This document shows positions 8,873-45,993 of a DNA stretch of 47,560 nucleotides, piece by piece; the first letter of the stretch is position 1, and each line of letters opens with the position of its first letter. This stretch comes from a virus, in the IMG/VR virus record IMGVR_UViG_3300030329_001677, positions 1 through 47,560 of that record; one strand, written 5' to 3'. Below the pieces are notes generated by a model. It made no database searches. It was not told the DNA's origin and saw nothing but the letters and a program-made list of their open reading frames with translations. The translations under genes were made by a program, and so were the position numbers.

Positions 8873-8880
8873 CAAATATA
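8873..8880 (-). promoter_or_regulatory. Bacteroidota-type promoter -7 box (minus strand)
   Basis: On the minus strand this reads TATATTTG, matching TAnnTTTG, about 28 nt upstream of the ATG of the HU-like gene. It is the clearest host-type promoter on the minus strand and would drive the HU-like, Rad52, SSB, RusA, DnaA-like and RecE-like operon. Confidence 0.65.
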
Positions 8881-8884
8881 TATA

Positions 8885-9037
8885 TTATTTATTTAATGAC
8901 AAAACTTTGTTAATAAAATTTTTTATACCATAGTACAACACTATAGCAGCACAAAGATAACTTAGTAGAGTTATTGATATATACATTAATAGTATGGTGG
9001 AGGAAACTCCGAATATCAATTTACTTTTGAGCGTCAT
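8885..9037 (-). CDS. Small membrane protein (50 aa)
   Basis: 50 codons from ATG 9037, which overlaps the helicase stop as ATGA. Residues ~7-40 are strongly hydrophobic (LIFGVSSTILLMYISITLLSYLCAAIVLYYGI), enough for one long or two tightly packed membrane helices, followed by a short basic end. No family recognised. It is translationally coupled to the helicase gene. It may be a membrane anchor or an inhibitor of a host membrane process; this is speculation. Confidence 0.6.
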   Translation of the reverse strand: MTLKSKLIFGVSSTILLMYISITLLSYLCAAIVLYYGIKNFINKVLSLNK

Positions 9038-10320
9038 GCGTTTTCAAATTTTGTTAAATTACTTATAAATTTCAATGGTATTTCTCCAACACCTATATTT
9101 CTACCTTTAGCAAATATAATATTAGCCATACCCTTTGTATCGTTTCCTGTGTCATCATGTTTTATACCATAATATTCAGGCCTATGTATCAATATAACAA
9201 CGTCAGCAGCTTGTTCTATTTCTCCAGATTCTCTAAGGTCAGATAAAGTGGGTTTACCCATAGCTCTCATTCCGACTCCTCTATTAAGCTGAGAAAGAGC
9301 TATAATTGTTATATTCAATTCTTTAGCTAAGTTTTTTAATGTTCTAGCTACTTTACTTACCTCTTGTTCTCTAGTAGAATTTTTATTATTAAATGTTACT
9401 AATTGTAAATAATCTACAAGAACAAGCTTTATCCCTTTTTTATTAACATAGTCTCTTATTCTGCTTTTTAAATAATTAAGAGATGTTATATTACACTCGT
9501 CTATATTGATAGGTAGTTTTTCTATTCTTCCTATAGCTTTATTAACTTCTAAATATTCATCTTTACCAAGAGTTCCATTAATGATATAACTGTTATTAAC
9601 TTCAGACTCCATAGATATTAATCGTTTTAAAAGTTGATTGCTACTCATTTCGTAAGAAAATATAACAGACGGAGTGTTAGAGTATTTACAAGCATTTAAT
9701 AATACAGCAAGAGCAAAACTAGTCTTACCCATAGATGAAGCTCCACCTATGATTACTAAATCTGTTTCTTGCCAGCCCCCTGTAAATTTATCAATCTTAT
9801 CAAATCCTGTGGCAATACCTAACAAACCATCTGTTGACATTCTTTTATTAATATCTTCTAATGTATTTTTTATTTGTAAAGATATATCATCAAGTTTTTC
9901 AACTTTAGATATATTTATATTAGACAATTCACTTTCTATAGAAGCAATAATATGATGTAAATTTTCTTTATTTTTTACTCCATTATTTATGTCTTGAGAT
10001 ATAGATATTAACTTATTTTTTTGAAAAATGTTTTCTAATGCCTCTATACAAGAAGATACTCTAGCTTGTGAATGTCCTTTGTTGGTCATTTGAGCAAGTA
10101 TAACCGCAGATTGCTCTGTTTTCTTTTTCATCCCTTCATTTAATGTTACTAAATCAATTGTTTTTCCTTCTGATTGATATTTTATCATTAAATCAAAAAC
10201 TGTTCTACTCATTGGATATTGAAATAATCCTTTATGAAGTTCTGATGAATATTTTTCTAGTAAATTAGATTCTATAATAATTTTTCCTAGTAGTATTTGT
10301 TCTATTTCTCTATCTTCCAT
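9034..10320 (-). CDS. dnaB: DnaB-like replicative helicase
   Basis: 428 residues, close to bacterial DnaB length. The N-terminal domain (residues 1-~105) is helical and begins with the DnaB-type EIEQILLGKII. The RecA-like C-terminal domain starts with LGIATGFDKIDKFTGGWQ, then Walker A GGASSMGKTS near 191-200, Walker B KLVLVDYLQLV near 299-309, and the sensor block IIALSQLNRGVGMR, with an arginine-finger region in the HRPEYYG segment. It unwinds the phage replication fork. It begins just past a terminator and is followed by a membrane micro-protein in ATGA overlap. No primase or polymerase is visible in the window. Confidence 0.95.
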   Translation of the reverse strand: MEDREIEQILLGKIIIESNLLEKYSSELHKGLFQYPMSRTVFDLMIKYQSEGKTIDLVTLNEGMKKKTEQSAVILAQMTNKGHSQARVSSCIEALENIFQKNKLISISQDINNGVKNKENLHHIIASIESELSNINISKVEKLDDISLQIKNTLEDINKRMSTDGLLGIATGFDKIDKFTGGWQETDLVIIGGASSMGKTSFALAVLLNACKYSNTPSVIFSYEMSSNQLLKRLISMESEVNNSYIINGTLGKDEYLEVNKAIGRIEKLPINIDECNITSLNYLKSRIRDYVNKKGIKLVLVDYLQLVTFNNKNSTREQEVSKVARTLKNLAKELNITIIALSQLNRGVGMRAMGKPTLSDLRESGEIEQAADVVILIHRPEYYGIKHDDTGNDTKGMANIIFAKGRNIGVGEIPLKFISNLTKFENA

Positions 10321-10352
10321 ATTTTAATTTTAAGAGGGTAAATATACTATAA

Positions 10353-10380
10353 AAAATTAAAAGGGGGTCAAAGACCCCCA
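10353..10380 (-). terminator. Rho-independent terminator
   Basis: On the minus strand GGGGGTC-TTT-GACCCCC forms a 7-bp GC-rich stem followed by a T-rich run. It lies just after the stop of the 73-aa gene and before the helicase gene, separating two transcription units. Confidence 0.85.
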
Positions 10381-10385
10381 AATAA

Positions 10386-12159: not shown

Positions 12160-12251
12160 AATAAAGAGAGCCCAGTGACCTGAGTATATTGTTTCTTCGT
12201 TTCCTCGCGGACCCACTTGTCTTCCAATACTGCTTAGGTATGAGCTCTCTA
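12160..12251 (-). ncRNA. Structured RNA element 1 (unknown family)
   Basis: This 92-nt non-coding block folds into an imperfect rod: AGAGAGC 12165-12171 with GCTCTCT 12244-12250; ACCT 12178-12181 with AGGT 12236-12239; AGT..ATTG 12183-12191 with CAATACT 12225-12231. The apical loop is about 33 nt with GC-rich spots. On the minus strand the closing stem is followed by TTTATTATT, like a terminator tail, so transcription from the minus strand is favoured. It shares its flanks with element 2. It could be a leader, a processed RNA or an attenuator of the HTH gene. Confidence 0.5.
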
Positions 12252-12265
12252 TACTATTATTAAAT

Positions 12266-12446
12266 AATAAAGAGAGTATAGGCTTGCCGTTGATTCACAC
12301 TTATCTTAAACTGTTCACCATATTCACAGTAAAGTACTTACGCGCTTTCCTTCAATAAGTGTATCCGTTTTTGCTGGACCGTCTATAGTGGTGTCTTCTA
12401 ACCACACGTAATGGGGCGTTTCTTATGTTCGCACTATACTCTCTTA
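12266..12446 (-). ncRNA. Structured RNA element 2 (unknown family)
   Basis: About 180 nt closed by a perfect 12-bp helix (AAGAGAGTATAG 12270-12281 with CTATACTCTCTT 12434-12445). Inside, on the minus strand, are ACACTTAT/ATAAGTGT (8 bp), GTGGT/ACCAC and ACTGT/ACAGT pairs, i.e. a multibranched fold. No open reading frame fills it. Its 3' strand can alternatively pair with the 5' strand of element 1 (CTCTCT with AGAGAG plus TATTATT with AATAATA). It follows the 61-aa gene in transcription order. No known riboswitch or ribozyme recognised. Confidence 0.55.
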
Positions 12447-12449
12447 TTA

Positions 12450-14707: not shown

Positions 14708-14762
14708 GGTTAATAATTTATATGCAATGAAAAGACCGAAAGACGAAGTCGCTTCGAGGGCA
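14708..14762 (-). promoter_or_regulatory. Cassette block H: hairpin plus TATTAA motif upstream of the 121-aa gene
   Basis: On the minus strand a hairpin region with CGAAGCGACTTCG and CTTTCGG is followed by GCATATAAATTATTAACC, with TATTAA 18 nt before the ATG. The same order of elements occurs at 17092, 17541 and, more loosely, 18280. No TAnnTTTG box is present, so a different promoter or a processing signal is inferred. Confidence 0.5.
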
Positions 14763-14763
14763 A

Positions 14764-14846
14764 AAGAGAGAGCGTTAACCGATAGGCGCGTTGACTTTAT
14801 CCTATTTTGTACGTAACGCTCGTTGAACGATAATACTCTCTCTTAT
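14764..14846 (-). ncRNA. Structured RNA element 3 (unknown family)
   Basis: Non-coding block between two genes with helices AAGAGA 14764-14769 / TCTCTT 14839-14844 and GAGCGTTA 14770-14777 / TAACGCTC 14814-14821, giving a stacked 14-bp stem with a one-sided 17-nt bulge. Read on the minus strand it ends in CTCTCTTTT, so it can terminate transcription of the 125-aa gene. The loop carries a second short pair (ATAGG/CCTAT). It directly precedes cassette block H. Confidence 0.5.
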
Positions 14847-14851
14847 AATTA

Positions 14852-15229
14852 TTATGCAGTAACTTTATTCTCTACTGCTCTACTCTCTTTCTCAAAATCT
14901 TCGCCGAATACATCATCAGCTAGGTTTTGAGCGTCTTTATGCCAGTATTCATCTAACACTGGAACATGAGAACGATTCTCTTTGCTTGATGGTATAAACT
15001 TGATGTTAACCCAAGAGTTACCGTCTTTACTTACTCTCTTATTATTATTAAGGAAGTCAATAAAGTCAGGTAATTTAATACCAATATTTAATACAGTTGT
15101 ACCAGTTTTATAAGTATGGTCTGTAATAAATAGATTAGGAACTAATGTAGATTGAGCTTTAGTAGTTTCTGCTTCTACTGTTTTTGCTACTGCTTTAGTA
15201 GCTTTCTTTGTTGTTTTAGCTTTTGCCAT
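14852..15229 (-). CDS. Protein with Lys/Ala-rich tail, function unknown (125 aa)
   Basis: 125 residues. Residues 1-25 are a Lys/Ala/Thr-rich extension (AKAKTTKKATKAVAKTVE) resembling DNA-binding tails of histone-like proteins. The remainder is a compact domain (LFITDHTYKTGTTVLNIGIKLPDFIDFLNN, SWVNIKFIPS) that I do not recognise. It forms a single-gene cassette: upstream motif at 15245 just after the previous terminator, downstream structured element 3. An abundant early protein is likely from that arrangement, which is inference. Confidence 0.7.
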   Translation of the reverse strand: MAKAKTTKKATKAVAKTVEAETTKAQSTLVPNLFITDHTYKTGTTVLNIGIKLPDFIDFLNNNKRVSKDGNSWVNIKFIPSSKENRSHVPVLDEYWHKDAQNLADDVFGEDFEKESRAVENKVTA

Positions 15230-15244
15230 TTTTTAATATTTTAA

Positions 15245-15263
15245 ATTAATACTTATACATAAC
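15245..15263 (-). promoter_or_regulatory. Cassette motif D (GTTATGTATAAGTATTAAT)
   Basis: The only sequence between the preceding terminator and the ATG of the 125-aa gene is about 35 nt, and this motif fills its upstream half, with TATTAA 16 nt before the ATG. It must hold the promoter if the terminator works. Nearly identical to the motif at 15806. Confidence 0.55.
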
Positions 15264-15287
15264 AAAAAAAGAGCCCAAAGGGCTCTC
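15264..15287 (-). terminator. Rho-independent terminator
   Basis: On the minus strand AGAGCCC-TTT-GGGCTCT forms a 7-bp stem followed by seven T residues, a canonical terminator, directly after the stop codon of the 167-aa gene. Confidence 0.92.
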
Positions 15288-15791
15288 TTATAATTCTTCA
15301 ATTTGTGCTTTTAAAGTATCTAAAAATGATTCATAATAATCATCTACTACTTTATTACATTCTTGTGTTACATAATCGATAGTTCTATATTCTCCCGACT
15401 GATGACCAGGAGTCCAGTCTCCTGAATGACTACAATCAAAACCTATCCATGTTAATGGTTTATTGATATGAAACGACATAAATCCATTATCTGTACGTTC
15501 AGGACCCCAGGTTATGCCTCCATGTACATTAACAAATACATGTAAACAACCTTCGTCAAAGTATCCGTTATCTTCTACTTGAAACCAAGGATGTTCATAA
15601 ACATGAGAACCTAAATCAACTTCGTCTGGTAATCCAATGTATGCATTTAAATGTTTCCAATCTGAATGTCTATTGATTATACACCAAATTCCTTTGTATT
15701 GCCATACTTTCCAGTCAAATTCTTTATCTATAATTTTTAGATACTTATCATTAAGTTCTTCAGCTGTTAATTGTTTAGATTCTTTTGTCAT
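15288..15791 (-). CDS. Conserved phage protein of unknown function (167 aa)
   Basis: 167 residues, Trp/His-rich. The segments GGITWGPERTDNG and WIGFDCSHSGDWTPG followed by YRTIDYVTQECNKV form a pattern I recall from phage proteins with very different hosts (FDCxHxGD...YVxxEC). Conserved Cys, His and Asp there could bind metal, but no activity is known to me. It is a free-standing cassette: motif at 15806 upstream, strong terminator immediately downstream. Confidence 0.8.
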   Translation of the reverse strand: MTKESKQLTAEELNDKYLKIIDKEFDWKVWQYKGIWCIINRHSDWKHLNAYIGLPDEVDLGSHVYEHPWFQVEDNGYFDEGCLHVFVNVHGGITWGPERTDNGFMSFHINKPLTWIGFDCSHSGDWTPGHQSGEYRTIDYVTQECNKVVDDYYESFLDTLKAQIEEL

Positions 15792-15805
15792 AGTTTTATT
15801 TTTAC

Positions 15806-15824
15806 ATTAATATTTATATATAAC
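15806..15824 (-). promoter_or_regulatory. Cassette motif E (GTTATATATAAATATTAAT)
   Basis: Lies between the terminator at 15825 and the ATG of the 167-aa gene, with TATTAA 15 nt before the ATG. It matches motif D at 16 of 19 positions in the same relation to an upstream terminator, supporting a shared promoter-like role. Confidence 0.55.
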
Positions 15825-15849
15825 AAAAAAAGAACCCCGAAGGGTTCTT
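15825..15849 (-). terminator. Rho-independent terminator
   Basis: Minus strand AAGAACCC-TTCG-GGGTTCTT: an 8-bp stem with a stable TTCG tetraloop and a T-rich tail, right after the stop of the 65-aa gene. Confidence 0.92.
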
Positions 15850-15851
15850 AA

Positions 15852-16049
15852 TTAATCTGTATATCCAAATGTTTTATTAGCTGTTTCTAATAATATTTCT
15901 GTAAGTGATTCGTCAAAGAATAAATTCCCGAATCTTTCTATCATTATATATGCTACGTCTTGATGATGTTTTGTAGAACTATTATTTATAACGTCTAATA
16001 TTTTGTTATATGCGTTTACTTTTTTTATACTTAACTCTACCATGGACAT
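15852..16049 (-). CDS. Small hypothetical protein (65 aa)
   Basis: 65 residues, probably all helical (SIKKVNAYNKILDVINNSSTKHHQDVAYIMIERFGNLFFDESLTEILLETANKTFGY). No family recognised. The first ATG overlaps the end of the upstream secreted-protein gene by 13 nt; a second in-frame ATG lies 6 nt later. Ends at a strong terminator, so it is the last gene of a two-gene unit. Confidence 0.65.
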   Translation of the reverse strand: MSMVELSIKKVNAYNKILDVINNSSTKHHQDVAYIMIERFGNLFFDESLTEILLETANKTFGYTD

Positions 16050-16285
16050 TCGTGATTAGATTCTTCTCTAATATACACACCTTTGTATATTGTAGGTTGA
16101 AGAGTTGTGTCCTTAAATGTAGGAGGATGAATAGTTACAACACTAGTTTTATTAGATATACTATCATAGATATAACATATTGTATCTATTTGTGTTGATG
16201 TTGTTGTATCATCACATTCAGATAATACTGTCGGAGGGTTCATCATGCAAGTTGAAACTAACATGAAGATGGCTACTAATTTCAT
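16037..16285 (-). CDS. Probable exported small protein (82 aa)
   Basis: 82 residues with an N-terminal signal-like segment (MKLVAIFMLVSTCMMN) that could be a signal peptide or a weak lipobox (LVSTC, with Thr instead of Gly/Ala at -1). The mature part is Thr-rich with Cys residues (SECDDTTTSTQIDTICYIYD, ESNHECPW) that could form disulphides outside the cytoplasm. A secreted or outer-membrane lipoprotein made by a phage could act in superinfection exclusion; this is inferred. The structured RNA at 16320-16512 lies just upstream and may be its leader. Confidence 0.65.
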   Translation of the reverse strand: MKLVAIFMLVSTCMMNPPTVLSECDDTTTSTQIDTICYIYDSISNKTSVVTIHPPTFKDTTLQPTIYKGVYIREESNHECPW

Positions 16286-16319
16286 AATTTTATTATTTAA
16301 TTAAACATTCATTTGATTG

Positions 16320-16512
16320 CAAAAGGAAGGAAAGGAGTTGTAATCACACACAAAGTATAACAGCAATTATAAATTATTTGTATTACTAACCTTTCCAACC
16401 TGTTTTAACATTAACCTTACTAATATTATGTTGATAATATGTGCTTGAGTTTTAGTCGTAGTTACTTAATCACTCTGGTATTATTTGGCCACACATATAT
16501 CTATAGATAACA
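16320..16512 (-). ncRNA. Structured RNA C, possible sRNA or leader
   Basis: A 190-nt stretch without genes. On the minus strand it starts after a cassette-type motif (16495-16523), contains a long-range ATATGTG/CACATAT pair (16492-16498 with 16437-16443), and ends with a large hairpin: GGAAAGG/CCTTTCC (16390-16396 with 16329-16335) stacked on GTAAT/ATTAC (16382-16386 with 16340-16344), followed by TTCCTTTT. It could be an independent small RNA or the 5' leader of the exported-protein gene that begins at 16285. Confidence 0.5.
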
Positions 16513-16523
16513 TAAATTGAACG
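16495..16523 (-). promoter_or_regulatory. Cassette motif C ahead of structured RNA C
   Basis: Minus strand reads TTTATGTTATCTATAGATATATG, sharing TTTATGTTA and the TATAG step with motifs A (17217) and B (17740). It follows a terminator at 16541, so a transcription start here is expected. Confidence 0.45.
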
Positions 16524-16540
16524 AACAAAGTGAGTTCTAA

Positions 16541-16561
16541 AAAGAGAGGCTAGCTCTCTTT
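16541..16561 (-). terminator. Rho-independent terminator overlapping the stop of the 74-aa gene
   Basis: Minus strand AAAGAGAG-CTAGC-CTCTCTTT, an 8-bp stem followed by TTTTAGA. The stem overlaps the last codons of the upstream gene, a compact arrangement also used at 17269. Confidence 0.85.
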
Positions 16562-16774
16562 AGGTAACATTGATGTAAATAGTGAGAACATAACTCCTGC
16601 TAATACAGCTGTAGCTAGTCCACTAAATGTGCCGATAAATAGTATTGGTAAACCAAGTGTAAATAATATATCCCACAAGACTTGTGTCTTTCTTAGTCTA
16701 TCTATACCTATCATCTTCCAGACTATTATAAAATAGCCTATAGCGGTGAAGAACGCGATTAAAAGTATACTCAT
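16550..16774 (-). CDS. Small membrane protein, two or three helices (74 aa)
   Basis: 74 residues, mostly hydrophobic: helix 1 MSILLIAFFTAIGYFIIVW, a short basic loop (DRLRKTQV), helix 2 LWDILFTLGLPILFIGTFSGL and helix 3 ATAVLAGVMFSLFTSML. No holin or other family recognised with confidence; size and topology would fit a small holin-like or exclusion protein, but its location in the early module and not beside the lysin argues against a lysis role. Single-gene cassette ending in a terminator. Confidence 0.7.
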   Translation of the reverse strand: MSILLIAFFTAIGYFIIVWKMIGIDRLRKTQVLWDILFTLGLPILFIGTFSGLATAVLAGVMFSLFTSMLPKES

Positions 16775-16792
16775 AATTTAATATTTATGTAA

Positions 16793-16819
16793 GTTAATAA
16801 TTAGTTATAATATACATAC
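16793..16819 (-). promoter_or_regulatory. Cassette motif J upstream of the 74-aa membrane protein gene
   Basis: Minus strand TGTATATTATAACTAATTATTAAC: a divergent version of the TATA...TATTAA block, with TATTAA 19 nt before the ATG, the same spacing class as the other cassettes. It overlaps the end of a possible 23-aa frame. Confidence 0.35.
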
Positions 16820-16872
16820 AATGTATTGTATACTTTAACGATAAAGTTTTGAACTGATTGATAATATTTCAT
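16801..16872 (-). CDS. Possible micro-protein (23 aa)
   Basis: ATG 16872 overlaps the stop of the 69-aa gene as ATGA and opens 23 codons (MKYYQSVQNFIVKVYNTLYV then YYN). Many neighbours use the same overlap, which is the only support; the frame is too short to judge and may be chance. Confidence 0.25.
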   Translation of the reverse strand: MKYYQSVQNFIVKVYNTLYVYYN

Positions 16873-17078
16873 AATTTAATTTTATAATATTTTATTCCAC
16901 TTAAATCAACATCACGCAATGAATAGTTCATATGTTTATGATGTAATGATTTGATTACATTTCTGAAATCTTTTTTTAATTCATCTGATACTCGTGAAAG
17001 AACAAGACAGTTGTAACATTCTTCTAATACTTCTAGTTCTTCATAAGATGGTGCATAGTTTGTTTCTTTTTCTTTCAT
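16869..17078 (-). CDS. Small hypothetical protein (69 aa)
   Basis: 69 residues, helical, mixed charge, with two cysteines (YEELEEVLEE-like acidic start, then ECYNCLVLSRVSDELKKDF). No family recognised. Its ATG is preceded by cassette block F, making it one of the single-gene units of this region. Confidence 0.62.
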   Translation of the reverse strand: MKEKETNYAPSYEELEVLEECYNCLVLSRVSDELKKDFRNVIKSLHHKHMNYSLRDVDLSGIKYYKIKL

Positions 17079-17091
17079 AATAATATATATT

Positions 17092-17140
17092 GATTAATAG
17101 TTATATGTAATATAACACCGAAAGGACGTAGTCCGCTTCG
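17092..17140 (-). promoter_or_regulatory. Cassette block F: hairpin plus TTACATATA/TATTAA motif
   Basis: Minus strand: CGAAGCG, then GGAC-TAC-GTCC hairpin, CTTTCGGTG, then TTATATTACATATAACTATTAATC, TATTAA 15 nt before the ATG of the 69-aa gene. Directly follows the T-run that ends RNA A. Confidence 0.5.
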
Positions 17141-17142
17141 AG

Positions 17143-17224
17143 AGAAAAAAAGGACATTGTCTTTACTTGATAGCAGCTATATTATATTGTGTGTCTGCCC
17201 GAAAGTTTAGATAAATATGTCCTA
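17143..17224 (-). ncRNA. Structured small RNA A (about 80 nt)
   Basis: On the minus strand AGGACAT at the 5' end (17217-17223) pairs with ATGTCCT at the 3' end (17151-17157), followed by seven T residues: a closed small RNA ending in a terminator. The interior holds short pairs such as ATAG/CTAT around a GCTG loop and no reading frame of note. It begins right after motif A and ends right before block F, so it is bounded like an independent transcript. Not a tRNA: no T-arm or anticodon arm is seen. Unknown family. Confidence 0.55.
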
Positions 17225-17257
17225 TATGTAACATAAACCGAAAGAACCAAAGGTTCT
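17217..17257 (-). promoter_or_regulatory. Cassette motif A with preceding hairpin, ahead of RNA A
   Basis: Minus strand: AGAACC-TTT-GGTTCT hairpin (17243-17257), then CGGTTTATGTTACATATAGGACAT (motif core 17217-17240). The core is almost the same as motif B at 17740 (one short block of differences), and both precede RNA without a gene. Confidence 0.5.
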
Positions 17258-17268
17258 ATTCGTAGATG

Positions 17269-17297
17269 AAAGAAAGAGACTAATAGCCTCTCTCTTT
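17269..17297 (-). terminator. Terminator overlapping the stop of the 81-aa gene
   Basis: Minus strand AAAGAGA (17291-17297) pairs with TCTCTTT (17273-17279) around an 11-nt loop containing the TAG stop, followed by CTTTC. Same compact stop-in-hairpin design as at 16541. Confidence 0.7.
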
Positions 17298-17525
17298 ATA
17301 TTCATGTTTGTTAACTATTGAACCACAGTCTAATATTGTGACATTGTCTTCATAATACTTTTCTATATCAGATTCTGTACAGTCTGTGTTTGTCCAGTGA
17401 TTATCAGGATACTCATAACTATCATCAGGCATATCACATTCTGGACAGCCATCATGATGATTGTGTAATGGTTCATCACATTTCTTTGTGAATAATTGTT
17501 TAATAAAGGTGAATAATCTTTTCAT
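17280..17525 (-). CDS. Small His/Cys/Asp-rich protein (81 aa)
   Basis: 81 residues: a basic start (MKRLFTFIKQLFTKKCDE) followed by HNHHDGCPECDMPDDSYEYPD, in which CxxC and His residues could bind zinc, then an acidic C-terminal part with further Cys. No family recognised; a small metal-binding protein is possible. Single-gene cassette with block G upstream and a terminator over its stop. Confidence 0.65.
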   Translation of the reverse strand: MKRLFTFIKQLFTKKCDEPLHNHHDGCPECDMPDDSYEYPDNHWTNTDCTESDIEKYYEDNVTILDCGSIVNKHEYKERGY

Positions 17526-17540
17526 AATAATATATTTATT

Positions 17541-17592
17541 GGTTAATATCTATATGTAATACAACGCCGAAAGGAGGCACGACGCTTCGTGT
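17541..17592 (-). promoter_or_regulatory. Cassette block G: hairpin plus TTACATATA/TATTAA motif
   Basis: Minus strand: CACGA-AGCG-TCGTG hairpin, CCTCCTTTCGGCG, then TTGTATTACATATAGATATTAACC, TATTAA 17 nt before the ATG of the 81-aa gene. Nearly collinear with block F, and directly follows the terminator of RNA B. Confidence 0.5.
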
Positions 17593-17593
17593 G

Positions 17594-17752
17594 TAAAAGA
17601 AAGACTATCTCTTAATCATCTTTCTTTCTCTGTTTGTTAAGGTAATGAGAATACCTTTGAGTTGTAAGTTTATAGTTCTTCAACTGACTTGTACAACTAT
17701 CGTTGTCTACATCAGATACTAACTCGGTATCTTTCTGTAATGTCCTATTAGT
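17594..17752 (-). ncRNA. Structured small RNA B (about 160 nt)
   Basis: Non-coding, minus strand. A series of local hairpins is visible: GATAC/GTATC, ACAAC/GTTGT with a GATA loop, AGTT/AACT with a GAAG loop, GGTA/TACC, and a final terminator AAGAAAGA/TCTTTCTT (17619-17626 with 17597-17604) followed by TT. It starts after motif B and ends before block G, so it is bounded as its own unit. It shares the 5' ATAGGACAT with RNA A but not the closing helix. Unknown family. Confidence 0.55.
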
Positions 17753-17763
17753 AACATAAACCG
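17740..17763 (-). promoter_or_regulatory. Cassette motif B ahead of RNA B
   Basis: Minus strand CGGTTTATGTTACTAATAGGACAT; matches motif A apart from a three-base stretch (CAT versus TAA). Preceded by TAGTCACTCCGTTCCTT, a weak hairpin region like those in front of motifs A and C. Confidence 0.5.
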
Positions 17764-18107
17764 AAGGAACGGAGTGACTATCGTAAGATATTGTTAATCA
17801 CATAAATACATTACTGATAGTATATAGTTGAAAATAAATGTTGTGCAACACTTGACAATATCAAATATTTTGTATAACTTCGTAGCATATTTGTATTATA
17901 TATTAAACAGTTAAATAAATATAGTAGTTAGTTATTTAGTATATTTTATGATAAATATTCGATAACTTATTGATTATCAATGTATTAAATGATTATAGTT
18001 AGATAATACTAGTAAATAGTATAGTTTTAATGGGTATTAGATTAGCTAGCAAGCTCACACTTTCACATAAATTACAGCATAATTGTGCACTTTCATATAC
18101 TTTAAAG
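17764..18107. other. AT-rich non-coding divergence region, candidate control/origin region
   Basis: About 340 nt with no convincing gene on either strand, noticeably richer in A and T than the coding flanks. It contains small dyads (TGTTG/CAACA 17839-17850; GATAA/TTATC 17961-17978) and a direct repeat CACTTTCACATA 18058-18069 / CACTTTCATATA 18088-18099 spaced by 30 nt. Leftward and rightward transcription diverge from here. Origin or regulatory function is inferred from position and composition. Confidence 0.4.
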
Positions 18108-18131
18108 CAAAAAGAGAGGTATTATCCTCTC
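18108..18131 (-). terminator. Rho-independent terminator
   Basis: Minus strand GAGAGG and CCTCTC (18126-18131 with 18114-18119) form a 6-bp stem followed by TTTTTGC. The stem overlaps the last codons of the 47-aa membrane protein. Confidence 0.75.
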
Positions 18132-18265
18132 AATTCTTTAATAGTATCTAATGTTTTCTTATCTTTTTTGATAAAGATTAAGTATAAAATGTAAACAGCT
18201 ATACCGAAGAATGCTGCTTTTGCTATCACAAGTATGATAGAGATGAATAGAATGAAGTAGTTCAT
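18122..18265 (-). CDS. Small single-pass membrane protein (47 aa)
   Basis: ATG 18265 opens 47 codons: residues 1-32 (MNYFILFISIILVIAKAAFFGIAVYILYLIFI) are hydrophobic, followed by a charged tail KKDKKTLDTIKELRG. The gene has block I upstream with the same TATTAA spacing as its neighbours and a terminator at its stop, so it is a complete cassette too short for ordinary gene callers. First gene of the leftward module. No family recognised. Confidence 0.7.
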   Translation of the reverse strand: MNYFILFISIILVIAKAAFFGIAVYILYLIFIKKDKKTLDTIKELRG

Positions 18266-18279
18266 AGTATTATAGTATT

Positions 18280-18326
18280 GGTTAATATCTATTGGAAATT
18301 CAAACGAGGAGCGTAGCGACGAGAGA
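18280..18326 (-). promoter_or_regulatory. Cassette block I upstream of the first leftward gene
   Basis: Minus strand: CGTCGCTACGCTCCTCG-type GC-rich hairpin region, then CCAATAGATATTAACC, with TATTAA 16 nt before the ATG at 18265. The last 14 nt match block G; the upstream part is diverged. Confidence 0.4.
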
Positions 18327-44900: not shown

Positions 44901-45993
44901 AGCAGTAGAGCTTCGAGAAAAACAAAATAAAGGAACAATAACATCTGAAGAATTAATAGAGTTAAATAAATTATCAAAGGATTTTCATAGAAGAGATGTA
45001 AGAACCCGAGGTAATCTTTATATGAACACAGAGCATCATCCAGATGGAGTAACAGTTCACTATAGCGAAGGGTTAAACGATATAGATAAATTTATAGCTA
45101 ATAGAAAAGACCAAATAATAAAAGCGGGATTAAATCCTGATATCAATTTAACTGCAGAACAAATTGCTTTATTAAATAAAATACAACAACCTGATTACGA
45201 TAATGCAAATTTACAAAATGATTTAGACGCTATAATATCATATAGCCCAGAAGTATTTGACGTAGATTATACTCCAGAAGAAACAGATGAGGACAAAGAA
45301 TTAAGAAGTCAAGGTTTAACAGGACAACAAATATTGCAAGGAACAATTGAAGCAGCTAAAGGAGTTGTAGATGCGTTTGGAGGTCCAGATGCTCTTATAA
45401 ACGCTGTTATGGGTAAAAAAGCTTTAGCCGCAGCTATGAAAGACGTAACACCAATGGAGCAGGCTAAACTGAGTCCTATGTTTATGGAACATTTAAGAGA
45501 AACTAGAGAATTATCTAAAAGAGGATATCATCCAGCAGAAGAGCTTAAAATAAGAAGAGAGATAGATAGAGCTTATCAAACAGGACTAGAAAATACTATA
45601 CGTGGTACAGCTGGAGATAGAGCTAAATATTTAGCCGCTTCAGGAATATTTGACGCAAAAAGAACTTTAGCGTTATTAGAGGTAGCTGAACAAGACGCGG
45701 TCTTACAAAGAGAAAATCAAAAGCAATATTCAGATTTATTATTATATAAAGAAAATTTTGAAGCTACCCAACAAGAAAATAAAAGAACAGAAAATTTACA
45801 AATGCAATTAGCAAACAAAAAAGCAGCTTCAGAATTTGCAGGATTAACATTTGCAAATGTTATGTCAGGATTAAATAATAGTAGTTCTCTTATAGATAAA
45901 TTAAAACAAGGAATGATGAACAATTATAATGGAGGATTTAATTTATCAAGTGTATACGAAAATAACAATACAAATAACGAAGAAAATCAATAA
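41920..45993 (+). CDS. Very large cargo-type virion protein with N-terminal M15-like peptidase
   Basis: 1357 residues. Residues ~30-125 form an M15-type zinc peptidase: TSSKREKASPG, S48-R-H50-xx-Y-x-A55-x-D57, then G114-P-H116-F-H118; H50, D57 and H118 are the expected zinc ligands. Two copies of an ~80-residue beta module follow (~228-314 and ~388-467; core EVxxxIxxGxI...IRIE...YEGTV...GTHT). A long Glu/Lys-rich helical rod with its own short repeats (~600-770) leads to a helical C-terminus ending Asn-rich. Acidic, non-membrane. It may be packed in the head or tail and carry a peptidoglycan-cutting tip for DNA entry. Overlaps both neighbours by 1 nt. Confidence 0.75.
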   Translation: MPDPIITRRGDSGGAVSSEVNAFIQELVKMNLGFTITSSKREKASPGSRHLTYDAIDIGVKSNDDASMLKFFFGEDFDPTDYSNMGKLKMTPEGLAFCKRHNIRIIDERDGKYGPHFHIEVITEDRADKVVESEDEATYHTEGRSIQISGRTAYEYGLEVTKDNFIYVKNDYNKSEEYQNSVNDGPIVDLRDMTPGGGSSGEVEWINNNEEILNYDTEKENIEEEESKELKIFKNDEEVLDAMARGEISSTDVIRIEYDGSNPKKPKGEVYEGTVKMGMDSNDNEFVQFLDGVHTNAKGDTNTHEGGSIVKTTPKEEIETEEIKTEEIKSFDSLGDVPAGLEDQNIIVNGIKYYKSEDGTEWIEEPGPDNMTQEDIENYQEQIKEEEVPTYKGTNEVYDSIMKGDIKGDDIIRIEFNDGSIYEGTVDYEYAEPGEPINLKFSNGTHTDKEGSVNKYEDGLTIEKNHNLKAEDYVEEYIDKEKEIETPETTEVPEVTETPEITTGGEEIPKASIYDDKETIRKRLISEGYEGEELESEIQATLEWNEIEKEWVQDNIIDNKEIIDKIFAENPELAEKFKDIDPEYYSEVDEFYYINDEEGGLNELIKSTKEGILNDEREFNKTETGLPETNEERTEREDNIKRYDDLITKRDNEGLSAEEEVELQNIIDNHGGYNPSELYEEHKKEEAERDANEEAGHGRITNWELENKIIEEEELQQEREDNYKITGISETDEEKFNRFEREKEQNQEDGFGYITNVQKEDQDVIWSTSDSEKELRNELKKELDKEEASLRAAAGDKEAEDRIKEDIKVTKLALEYLELKNKHGRKDDVFDIKSFREAIKNKDVQQLNMWYNDQRKEVIHLLEKDRKSIEDGTYTGSEEEREYVLSTLETLKKSSPKSELPDFDNQTHMLKYVTLGSEEDFTKLEGLQKDRKYIKESADINGKIINAANSDKTGSGITTENKYGDRDYQEVIDWNNGTTYYIKVDWLNTSESSRAVELREKQNKGTITSEELIELNKLSKDFHRRDVRTRGNLYMNTEHHPDGVTVHYSEGLNDIDKFIANRKDQIIKAGLNPDINLTAEQIALLNKIQQPDYDNANLQNDLDAIISYSPEVFDVDYTPEETDEDKELRSQGLTGQQILQGTIEAAKGVVDAFGGPDALINAVMGKKALAAAMKDVTPMEQAKLSPMFMEHLRETRELSKRGYHPAEELKIRREIDRAYQTGLENTIRGTAGDRAKYLAASGIFDAKRTLALLEVAEQDAVLQRENQKQYSDLLLYKENFEATQQENKRTENLQMQLANKKAASEFAGLTFANVMSGLNNSSSLIDKLKQGMMNNYNGGFNLSSVYENNNTNNEENQ
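42601..43320 (+). repeat. Two-copy internal protein repeat in the 1357-aa gene
   Basis: DNA 42601-42860 and 43081-43320 encode related modules. Shared features in order: a short helix with two Asp/Glu, DVIRIEY / DIIRIEF, VYEGTV / IYEGTV, then a Gly-Thr-His-Thr turn and a final Gly-rich hydrophobic strand. Nucleotide identity is low, so this is an old duplication. Confidence 0.75.

Follow-up and report, generated by a model that had tools for sequence, protein, structure and literature searches.

A repeated AT-rich core as a probable early promoter in an uncultured crassvirus, with a giant virion RNA polymerase as its candidate reader

Crassviruses are abundant, and their virion RNA polymerase is an unusual enzyme, related to the eukaryotic polymerases of RNA interference. 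The early genes of crAss phages are transcribed by this virion polymerase, a transcription that is rifampicin resistant in phi14:2 (PMC10136315). Elsewhere, virion-polymerase promoters are AT-rich and lie near -10 (PMC7598289); the early promoter of AR9, for instance, is AAATATATATTAT-6N-G, with the G at +1 (PMC5312081). The virion polymerase of Thermus phage P23-45 is a single-polypeptide, two-barrel enzyme, fused to the tape measure protein and structurally compared with phi14:2 gp66, and its promoter motif is absent from relatives without that polymerase (PMC10770324). While such promoters are thus known elsewhere, none was found described for the Crassvirales in the literature searched (the phi14:2 polymerase paper lying outside its scope), nor was a description of how the crassvirus polymerase chooses its start sites; the core reported here would provide start sites that are directly testable.

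The window, i.e., the whole 47,560-nt stretch of DNA analysed, is, judging by its marker genes, part of an uncultured crassvirus of the order Crassvirales. It encodes TerL (phrog_6681, E 5e-96; ~30% identical to crAss-like phages), portal (phrog_6547, E 2e-125) and a muzzle protein (crAss_MUZ PF25731, 463.6 bits). Using the D-x-D-x-D catalytic motif as the criterion for a giant virion RNA polymerase gene, we found ORFs of 3,390-3,972 aa (one incomplete at the sequence end) with the motif GADLDGD in relatives G001, G002 and G004. These ORFs match phi14:2 gp66 behind the catalytic motif (local hhalign, E 9e-7) and crAss RNA polymerases more generally (tblastn, best E 3e-5). A phi14:2 polymerase segment used as a query gave no match on the relatives' contigs, where the gene was located via the catalytic motif instead, and the polymerase segment matched neither solved structures nor PHROGs. 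As the giant gene of G001 comes directly after genes matching the last ones of the window, the relatives' gene order suggests that this virus carries its polymerase gene just past the window's end.

The original prediction described at least nine minus-strand sites sharing an ordered block, consisting of a hairpin with CGAAGCG, then CTTTCGG, TTAyATATA and TATTAA. The recurrent signal is real, but the full block was found only near 14708, 17092 and 17541; what the sites share is an AT-rich core of 16 nt (consensus TTTATATTACATATA-R), present on the minus strand at eight to nine sites between 14.7 and 18.3 kb. Ranks below are leave-one-out ranks among 95,120 positions.

18289-18304, minus strand: weaker core TTTGAATTTCCAATAG; leader 24 nt, ATG 18265; rank 67; counterparts in L009, L024 and L025 strong
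17745-17760, minus strand: core TTTATGTTACTAATAG; putative +1 at 17745; gene-less unit downstream; rank 8
17550-17565, minus strand: core GTTGTATTACATATAG; putative +1 at 17550; leader 25 nt, ATG 17525; rank 5
17222-17237, minus strand: core TTTATGTTACATATAG; putative +1 at 17222; structured RNA downstream; rank 1; included in an alignment
17101-17116, minus strand: core GTTATATTACATATAA; putative +1 at 17101; leader 23 nt, ATG 17078; rank 7
16501-16516, minus strand: core TTTATGTTATCTATAG; putative +1 at 16501; structured RNA downstream; rank 5; retained in L002, L003, L005 and L008
15814-15829, minus strand: core TTTTTGTTATATATAA; overlaps the T-tract of the preceding terminator; leader 23 nt, ATG 15791; rank 6
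15253-15268, minus strand: core TTTTTGTTATGTATAA; overlaps the T-tract of the preceding terminator; leader 24 nt, ATG 15229; rank 10
14718-14733, minus strand: weaker core TTTTCATTGCATATAA; leader 27 nt, ATG 14691; rank 48; counterparts in L002 and L005 strong

The pattern [TG]TT[ATG][TA][AG]TTA[CT][AGC]TATA[AG], composed after the sites had been seen, matched six times in the window versus 0.23 matches expected in second-order Markov sequence, and all six matches were on the minus strand between 15.2 and 17.6 kb. When a position weight matrix (PWM) was scanned over the window, seven of the nine left-out sites ranked within the top 10 positions; the combined PWM incorporates some sites picked by eye. 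The two weak sites (14733 and 18304) have strong counterparts in relatives. Outside the early region, ~54 kb of a close relative contained only three marginal matches. The core is AT-rich, as is the surrounding genome, and two sites are weak when taken singly. A site originally placed at 16793 was dropped: TATTAA is present, but the core is too poor.

At six sites, the purine that ends the core (R) lies 23-27 nt upstream of the ATG of an early gene, a distance that is also found in close relatives:

18122-18265, minus strand: early gene, 47 aa, hydrophobic as read from the sequence
17280-17525, minus strand: early gene, 81 aa
16869-17078, minus strand: early gene, 69 aa
15288-15791, minus strand: early gene, 167 aa, phrog_2164
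14852-15229, minus strand: early gene, 125 aa
14326-14691, minus strand: early gene, 121 aa

Among the core sites, TATTAA is confined to those with an mRNA downstream. Its reported position 15-19 nt before the ATG holds for these mRNA units, although 3 of 25 other minus-strand genes and 2 of 23 plus-strand genes have TATTAA ahead of them as well. TATTAA was rejected as the promoter core, as the non-coding units lack it; it is a leader element 3' of the likely +1, outside the promoter. We also considered whether the sites reflect a translation-initiation leader common to early genes, rather than a transcription signal. Such a reading would account for the constant spacing of TATTAA and the AT-rich leader from the ATG, and Bacteroidota use A-rich upstream positions instead of a Shine-Dalgarno sequence (PMC6847099); further, minus-strand genes that lack the core are likewise enriched in TTAA at -30 to -8 (12 of 25, vs 3 of 25 at -60 to -38). 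Leader and core are separable, however, so that this reading explains TATTAA only, and three of the units headed by the core have neither an ATG nor TATTAA; the RNA of one of the three shows conserved pairing. That non-coding units carry the core largely refutes a translational role for it, and we consider this explanation very improbable.

In these three units R begins a stretch without a gene:

17595-17745, minus strand: gene-less structured unit with a terminator-like hairpin at its end; fold z -3.3; this window only
17145-17222, minus strand: small structured RNA; fold z -2.9; eight sequences, all pairs kept, two compensated
16321-16501, minus strand: structured RNA; fold z -2.4; 3' domain common to distant relatives

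The original prediction had entered the sites at 16495, 17217 and 17740 as mere related cores; the cores are confirmed, TATTAA is present at none of the three, and their role at the head of gene-less structured units had been missed. These units are the strongest evidence for the position of the transcription start. In the 17145-17222 RNA, the 5' GGACAU, starting at R, pairs with AUGUCC, the terminator arm ahead of the U-tract; across the eight sequences, 100% of the cells in this pairing were paired, with compensatory changes at two pairs, whereas slid controls gave 33-52%. The core precedes R in the homologues of this RNA in the window, L002, L003 and L011, and in weaker form in L024 and L025; in the alignment, no recognisable core stood ahead of R in L007 and L008. 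No homologue of the 17595-17745 unit was found among the loci fetched from relatives. A search of the whole window against Rfam gave no match at gathering scores, and matches in the early region were at chance level only. Judging by these units, the first products of the phage may include small RNAs, which gene calling alone would overlook.

The surroundings of the core differ from site to site:

17567-17589, minus strand: CGAAGCG...CTTTCGG hairpin-like element preceding the 17565 core
17118-17140, minus strand: CGAAGCG...CTTTCGG hairpin-like element preceding the 17116 core
14736-14756, minus strand: CGAAGCG...CTTTCGG hairpin-like element preceding the 14733 core
15830-15849, minus strand: intrinsic terminator adjoining the 15829 core
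15267-15289, minus strand: intrinsic terminator adjoining the 15268 core

On the minus strand, CGAAGCG occurs at 14756, 17140 and 17589 only; several sites in the window have an ordinary terminator in place of the CGAAGCG/CTTTCGG hairpin, and the upstream hairpin is missing at several first-gene sites of distant relatives L039, L052 and L073. The hairpin was rejected as a general promoter element, being variable and, at some sites, absent. The claim that blocks directly follow terminators was borne out: those at 15245 and 15806 abut intrinsic terminators, and those at 17092, 17541 and 14708 come after the T-tract hairpin ends of upstream units. This layout bears on the alternative, raised with the original prediction, that the core recurs as a signal for RNA processing: cleavage of a long transcript between ATATA and R would give mRNAs and small RNAs uniform 5' ends. 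In sequence, uniform 5' ends at R look the same under either reading; RNase E-like cleavage suits A/U-rich single-stranded sites, and distant relatives contain RNA-like units in tandem, some with no obvious core ahead. With intrinsic terminators immediately 5' of many cores, little read-through RNA would reach the cores; further, a host-type promoter is missing upstream on the same strand, and the core merges into the T-tract of the terminator, so that terminator and promoter are compactly arranged. We therefore judge processing improbable, and less likely than a promoter.

The relatives retain this anatomy, usually a terminator, core, R and a leader of ~25 nt, while the core sequence drifts by clade. 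Distant relatives (TerL 80-83% identical) have versions such as TTTACTATTATTATTAA (L039) and TTCAACTTAATAATAG (L056 and L073), usually 3' of terminators and 5' of early ATGs. In the 59.5 kb of G002, eight sequences match its own core with one mismatch; six of these precede early genes or fall within the early region, five of the six within about 2 kb. When the PWM was applied to held-out relatives, an ORF start followed R by 18-36 nt for 12 of 38 matches, a number reached by none of 300 column-permuted controls (mean 0.56, maximum 5). A PWM built from relatives only gave, at a threshold of 11, three matches in the region of the window and seven elsewhere; it is weak because the core differs among clades, but 0 of 300 permuted PWMs reached three in the region. 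Block copies do cross-match at non-orthologous places within and between relatives, and CGAAGCG-type hairpins are similar across non-orthologous sites, as expected if the blocks were mobile or recombining repeat cassettes (REP-like hairpin plus flank), alike by recent duplication and without a regulatory role. While shuffling may spread cassettes, it leaves the constraint unexplained: core, R and leader length are constant where the flanking hairpins differ, and distant clades with a different core keep the geometry. A cassette origin without function thus appears very unlikely.

As candidate promoters the cores are well supported by these patterns, and a phage-specific promoter, as originally suggested, is the best-supported reading; the clade has an RNA polymerase encoded by the phages themselves. 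TATTAA and the hairpin do not belong to it. We consider it probable that the core is a crassvirus early promoter with R as +1, read by a giant RNA polymerase packaged in the virion. Under this proposal, the polymerase would be injected from the virion along with the DNA and would read TTTATATTACATATA-R, starting at R or within 1-2 nt of it. Most early genes and small RNAs between 14.7 and 18.3 kb would then form their own short transcription units, each beginning at a promoter and ending at a terminator, which in many cases directly adjoins the promoter of the next unit; between the two would lie a structured non-coding RNA or, for the genes, an AT-rich leader of 23-27 nt (usually of the form R-n-TATTAAyC...) with its ATG. 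Host-type promoters would drive the rightward (structural) direction and one leftward gene further along:

17852-17882, plus strand: host-type promoter TTGAC...TAACTTCG; faces the structural genes; position conserved across a dozen lineages
8873-8902, minus strand: host-type promoter TTG...TATATTTG; precedes the leftward gene; kept at the same offset in relatives

In agreement with the original claim that the blocks have no host box, TAHHTT(T/C)G is absent from the minus strand between 14.6 and 18.45 kb. A simple sigma-70 scan was uninformative (70 matches vs 73 in shuffles). Upstream of the DnaB helicase gene (10320-10384), a terminator-like hairpin and TTTTAATTTTTTATAGTATATTTACC have similar geometry and may represent a host-like promoter.

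The same promoter-level evidence (PWM ranks, leaders and held-out relatives) would be seen if these phage-specific promoters were read by the RNA polymerase of the host, retargeted by a factor that the phage encodes or injects. Reprogramming of the host enzyme is common in phages (PMC5312081), and phi14:2 and crAss001 have their own virion polymerases, yet no core was found in the early regions of these two crassviruses, the two with transcript data; the link to the virion polymerase accordingly rests on position and analogy. We nonetheless find redirection unlikely: the clade encodes a giant crAss-type RNA polymerase, no sigma-like gene was found among the proteins scanned (small proteins covered in part), and the core adjoins the likely start and has no distinct -35-like element, a layout also seen in virion-polymerase promoters (PMC7598289). 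More tentatively, reading by the virion polymerase might extend to a clade-specific promoter code that drifts with the fast-evolving giant polymerase and gives rise, among the earliest products of infection, to early proteins and also to a set of small structured RNAs not described before. The 16-nt core with its predicted +1, about nine natural templates per genome and swappable clade variants offer a simple in vitro test.

Among known systems, the Bacteroidota primary-sigma promoter (-33 TTG, -7 TAHHTTTG) is conserved in this virus at 17852 (plus strand) and 8902 (minus strand), whereas the early core has neither TTTG nor a -33 element, and no -7 TAHHTTTG was found in the early minus-strand region. 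As with the hairpin promoters of the N4 virion RNA polymerase, many cores are preceded by a hairpin; an N4-type promoter, however, has a short, conserved hairpin in a constant position immediately 5' of +1, whereas the hairpins of this virus differ from one another in sequence, length and distance and better fit terminators. The phages phi14:2 (gp66) and crAss001 share the opposed early and structural arcs, with early genes adjoining the divergent junction, and, with this clade, a giant polymerase gene of detectable homology behind cargo protein genes; they differ in having early regions without the core motif. P23-45 likewise has an AT-rich motif at its pre-early promoters but infects a host of another phylum, and its promoters are backed by ONT-cappable-seq and ChIP-seq (PMC10770324). 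The phiKZ-like jumbo phages, including AR9, have a virion RNA polymerase and, as here, a phage-specific, repeated AT-rich motif of ~10-15 nt near -10 before early units, with a purine start (PMC5312081, PMC7598289), the start in this virus being the predicted one. The spacing is ~5 nt from TTAC to R, the putative +1, compared with 6 nt from TTAT to G in AR9, and the spacing of the motif here is constant relative to both the ATG (23-27 nt) and the 5' arm of the pairing in the small RNA, as read from sequence alone. Unlike in phiKZ-like phages, the units are short and packed behind terminators, several are non-coding RNAs, and the polymerase of this clade is a single giant crAss-type polypeptide.

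The window comprises 47,560 nt from an uncultured virus. Its terminase, portal and muzzle proteins show its crassviral affiliation, and no near DNA match to its 3-22 kb portion was found among GenBank phages. It is a partial genome spanning the junction between an early/replication arc and a structural arc, with the GC-skew turning point falling between the two.

18.3-3.1 kb, minus strand: leftward genes
18.5-47.5 kb, plus strand: rightward structural genes

The original prediction described an ordered minus-strand block of a CGAAGCG hairpin, CTTTCGG, TTAyATATAr and TATTAA. Alignment of the proposed places on that strand yielded a common 16-nt core ending in a purine (R); CGAAGCG was not borne out as a general part, its minus-strand occurrences being limited to 14756, 17140 and 17589, and cores 15268 and 15829 are preceded by ordinary terminators.

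17760, 17565, 17237, 17116, 16516, 15829, 15268, 14733 (5' ends), minus strand: core sites
18304 (5' end), minus strand: weaker core site

Leave-one-out models placed seven core sites within the top 10 of 95,120 positions, core 14733 at rank 48 and core 18304 at rank 67. Counterparts of the latter two in loci of relatives (L numbers) match the core better: GTTTCATTACATATAA in L002 and TTTTTATTGCATATAA in L005 for 14733, and TTTATATTACACATAG in L025 and TTTACATTACTAATAA in L009 for 18304. Because the window's sites were first noticed by eye, the tests in relatives outweigh these numbers. Several counts rest on eye-chosen sites. The window's core recurs in close relatives, both at orthologous sites and at further ones; relatives whose terminases are 80-83% identical have a different, recognizable core in the same place.

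TTTACTATTATTATTAA: clade core variant, L039
TTCAACTTAATAATAG: clade core variant, L056 and L073
TTACAATTAATAATAG: clade core variant, L083

Applied to 16 loci left out of its construction, a combined position weight matrix gave 38 matches, and in 12 cases an ORF start follows 18-36 nt downstream, versus a mean of 0.56 and a maximum of 5 such cases for 300 column-permuted matrices. Over 59.5 kb of G002, the genome of a relative, a search with that genome's core allowing one mismatch gave eight matches, of which five lie within 2 kb directly ahead of early genes (52970-55000); in a close relative, the ~54 kb beyond the early region contain three marginal core matches. Judged from sequence, the core is very probably a promoter of some kind.

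Six units consist of R, a leader of 23-27 nt and an ATG (for 18304, the ATG read from sequence at 18265 gives 24 nt), and three are gene-less, with R at 17745, 17222 and 16501. TATTAA follows the core in the ATG-bearing units, as predicted, but not in the gene-less ones, which marks core and leader as separate elements. The 17222 unit spans 78 nt and shows 84-95% identity in relatives. Its 5' GGACAU pairs with AUGUCC immediately upstream of a U-tract, closing the RNA upon itself; across eight sequences 18 of 18 pairs are kept, two with compensation on both sides. This closing pairing points to a putative 5' end at R, an argument with a gap in L007 and L008, where the RNA is present and the upstream sequence is no longer core-like. 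The 16501 unit ends 3' in a domain (GGUUAGUAA...GUUAUACUUUG...UUACA) shared with distant relatives, in which the closing stem is altered yet still pairs; the copies probably constitute a new RNA family of the clade. The 17745 unit, without a counterpart in the relatives' loci compared, was found only in the window.

16321-16400, minus strand: shared RNA domain, GGTTAGTAA...GTTATACTTTG...TTACA
L039:3813-3884, L052:710-779, L056:2612-2683, L069:3585-3655, L112:11905: the domain in relatives

Another three conserved stretches lack genes and have no Rfam match, and in each the two ends pair mutually ahead of a T-rich stretch; they look like additional small structured RNAs.

14766-14848, minus strand: 84-96% identical in relatives
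12160-12262, minus strand
12268-12448, minus strand: 88-92% identical in relatives

At L073:3227, L044:3855 and L088:55 there is a second RNA-like element that recurs, GCGTGTGGCCAnGGAATGATAAC...GTTAT, its ends pairing ahead of a T-tract.

The expected absence of a host box was confirmed, TAHHTT(T/C)G being missing from the early minus strand. The virus retains host-type promoters elsewhere and has another signal in this region.

17852-17882, plus strand: TTGAC...TAACTTCG, toward the structural genes at the junction; kept in about a dozen lineages
8873-8902, minus strand: TTG...TATATTTG, ahead of a leftward gene; conserved

The junction at 17780-18110, conserved, non-coding and near the GC-skew turning point, holds palindromes of TTGATAATCAA and of a TTGACAATGTCAA-like sequence as well as ATTTAnnTGATTAA repeats, and is a candidate replication origin overlapping the rightward host-type promoter. 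Ahead of the DnaB helicase gene, 10320-10384 (minus strand; GGGGGTCTTTGACCCCCTTTTAATTTTTTATAGTATATTTACC) is nearly unchanged in relatives with helicases of 70-89% identity.

The window's end cuts a gene starting at 45993. In G001, another relative's genome stretch, the equivalent gene precedes a 3,972-aa ORF with GADLDGD, which has counterparts in G002 (3,951 aa) and G004 (at least 3,390 aa). Compared with phages, a segment of the GADLDGD ORF matched crAss RNA polymerases (best E 3e-5), and in profile comparison the stretch behind GADLDGD aligned with that behind DFDID of phi14:2 gp66 (E 9e-7, probability 91%). The polymerase segment is 44-56% identical among these lineages, and their terminases share ~82-95% identity with the window's. 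A rapidly changing polymerase would be in keeping with the drift of the core.

Early crAss genes are transcribed by an injected polymerase and late genes probably by the host enzyme (PMC10136315; PMC8375218). The proposal of a phage-specific promoter is well supported by the conserved core and by the lack of a host box on the early minus strand; a phage polymerase gene is seen in relatives, and its product would be the enzyme that reads the core. The arrangement of early and structural arcs is the same in phi14:2. The core of this clade was not found in the early regions of phi14:2 and crAss001. Within 900 nt of the crAss001 early region (L132, 7966-8870), a GTGTATnATA...TTACTTCAA-like element recurs about five times, surrounding tRNA-like sequences. 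Known multisubunit or two-barrel virion polymerases use AT-rich motifs near -10 (PMC7598289; PMC5312081; PMC10770324). In place, composition, spacing and strand the core agrees with virion-polymerase promoters elsewhere, and by this analogy it is probably read by the virion polymerase, with R as the putative +1.
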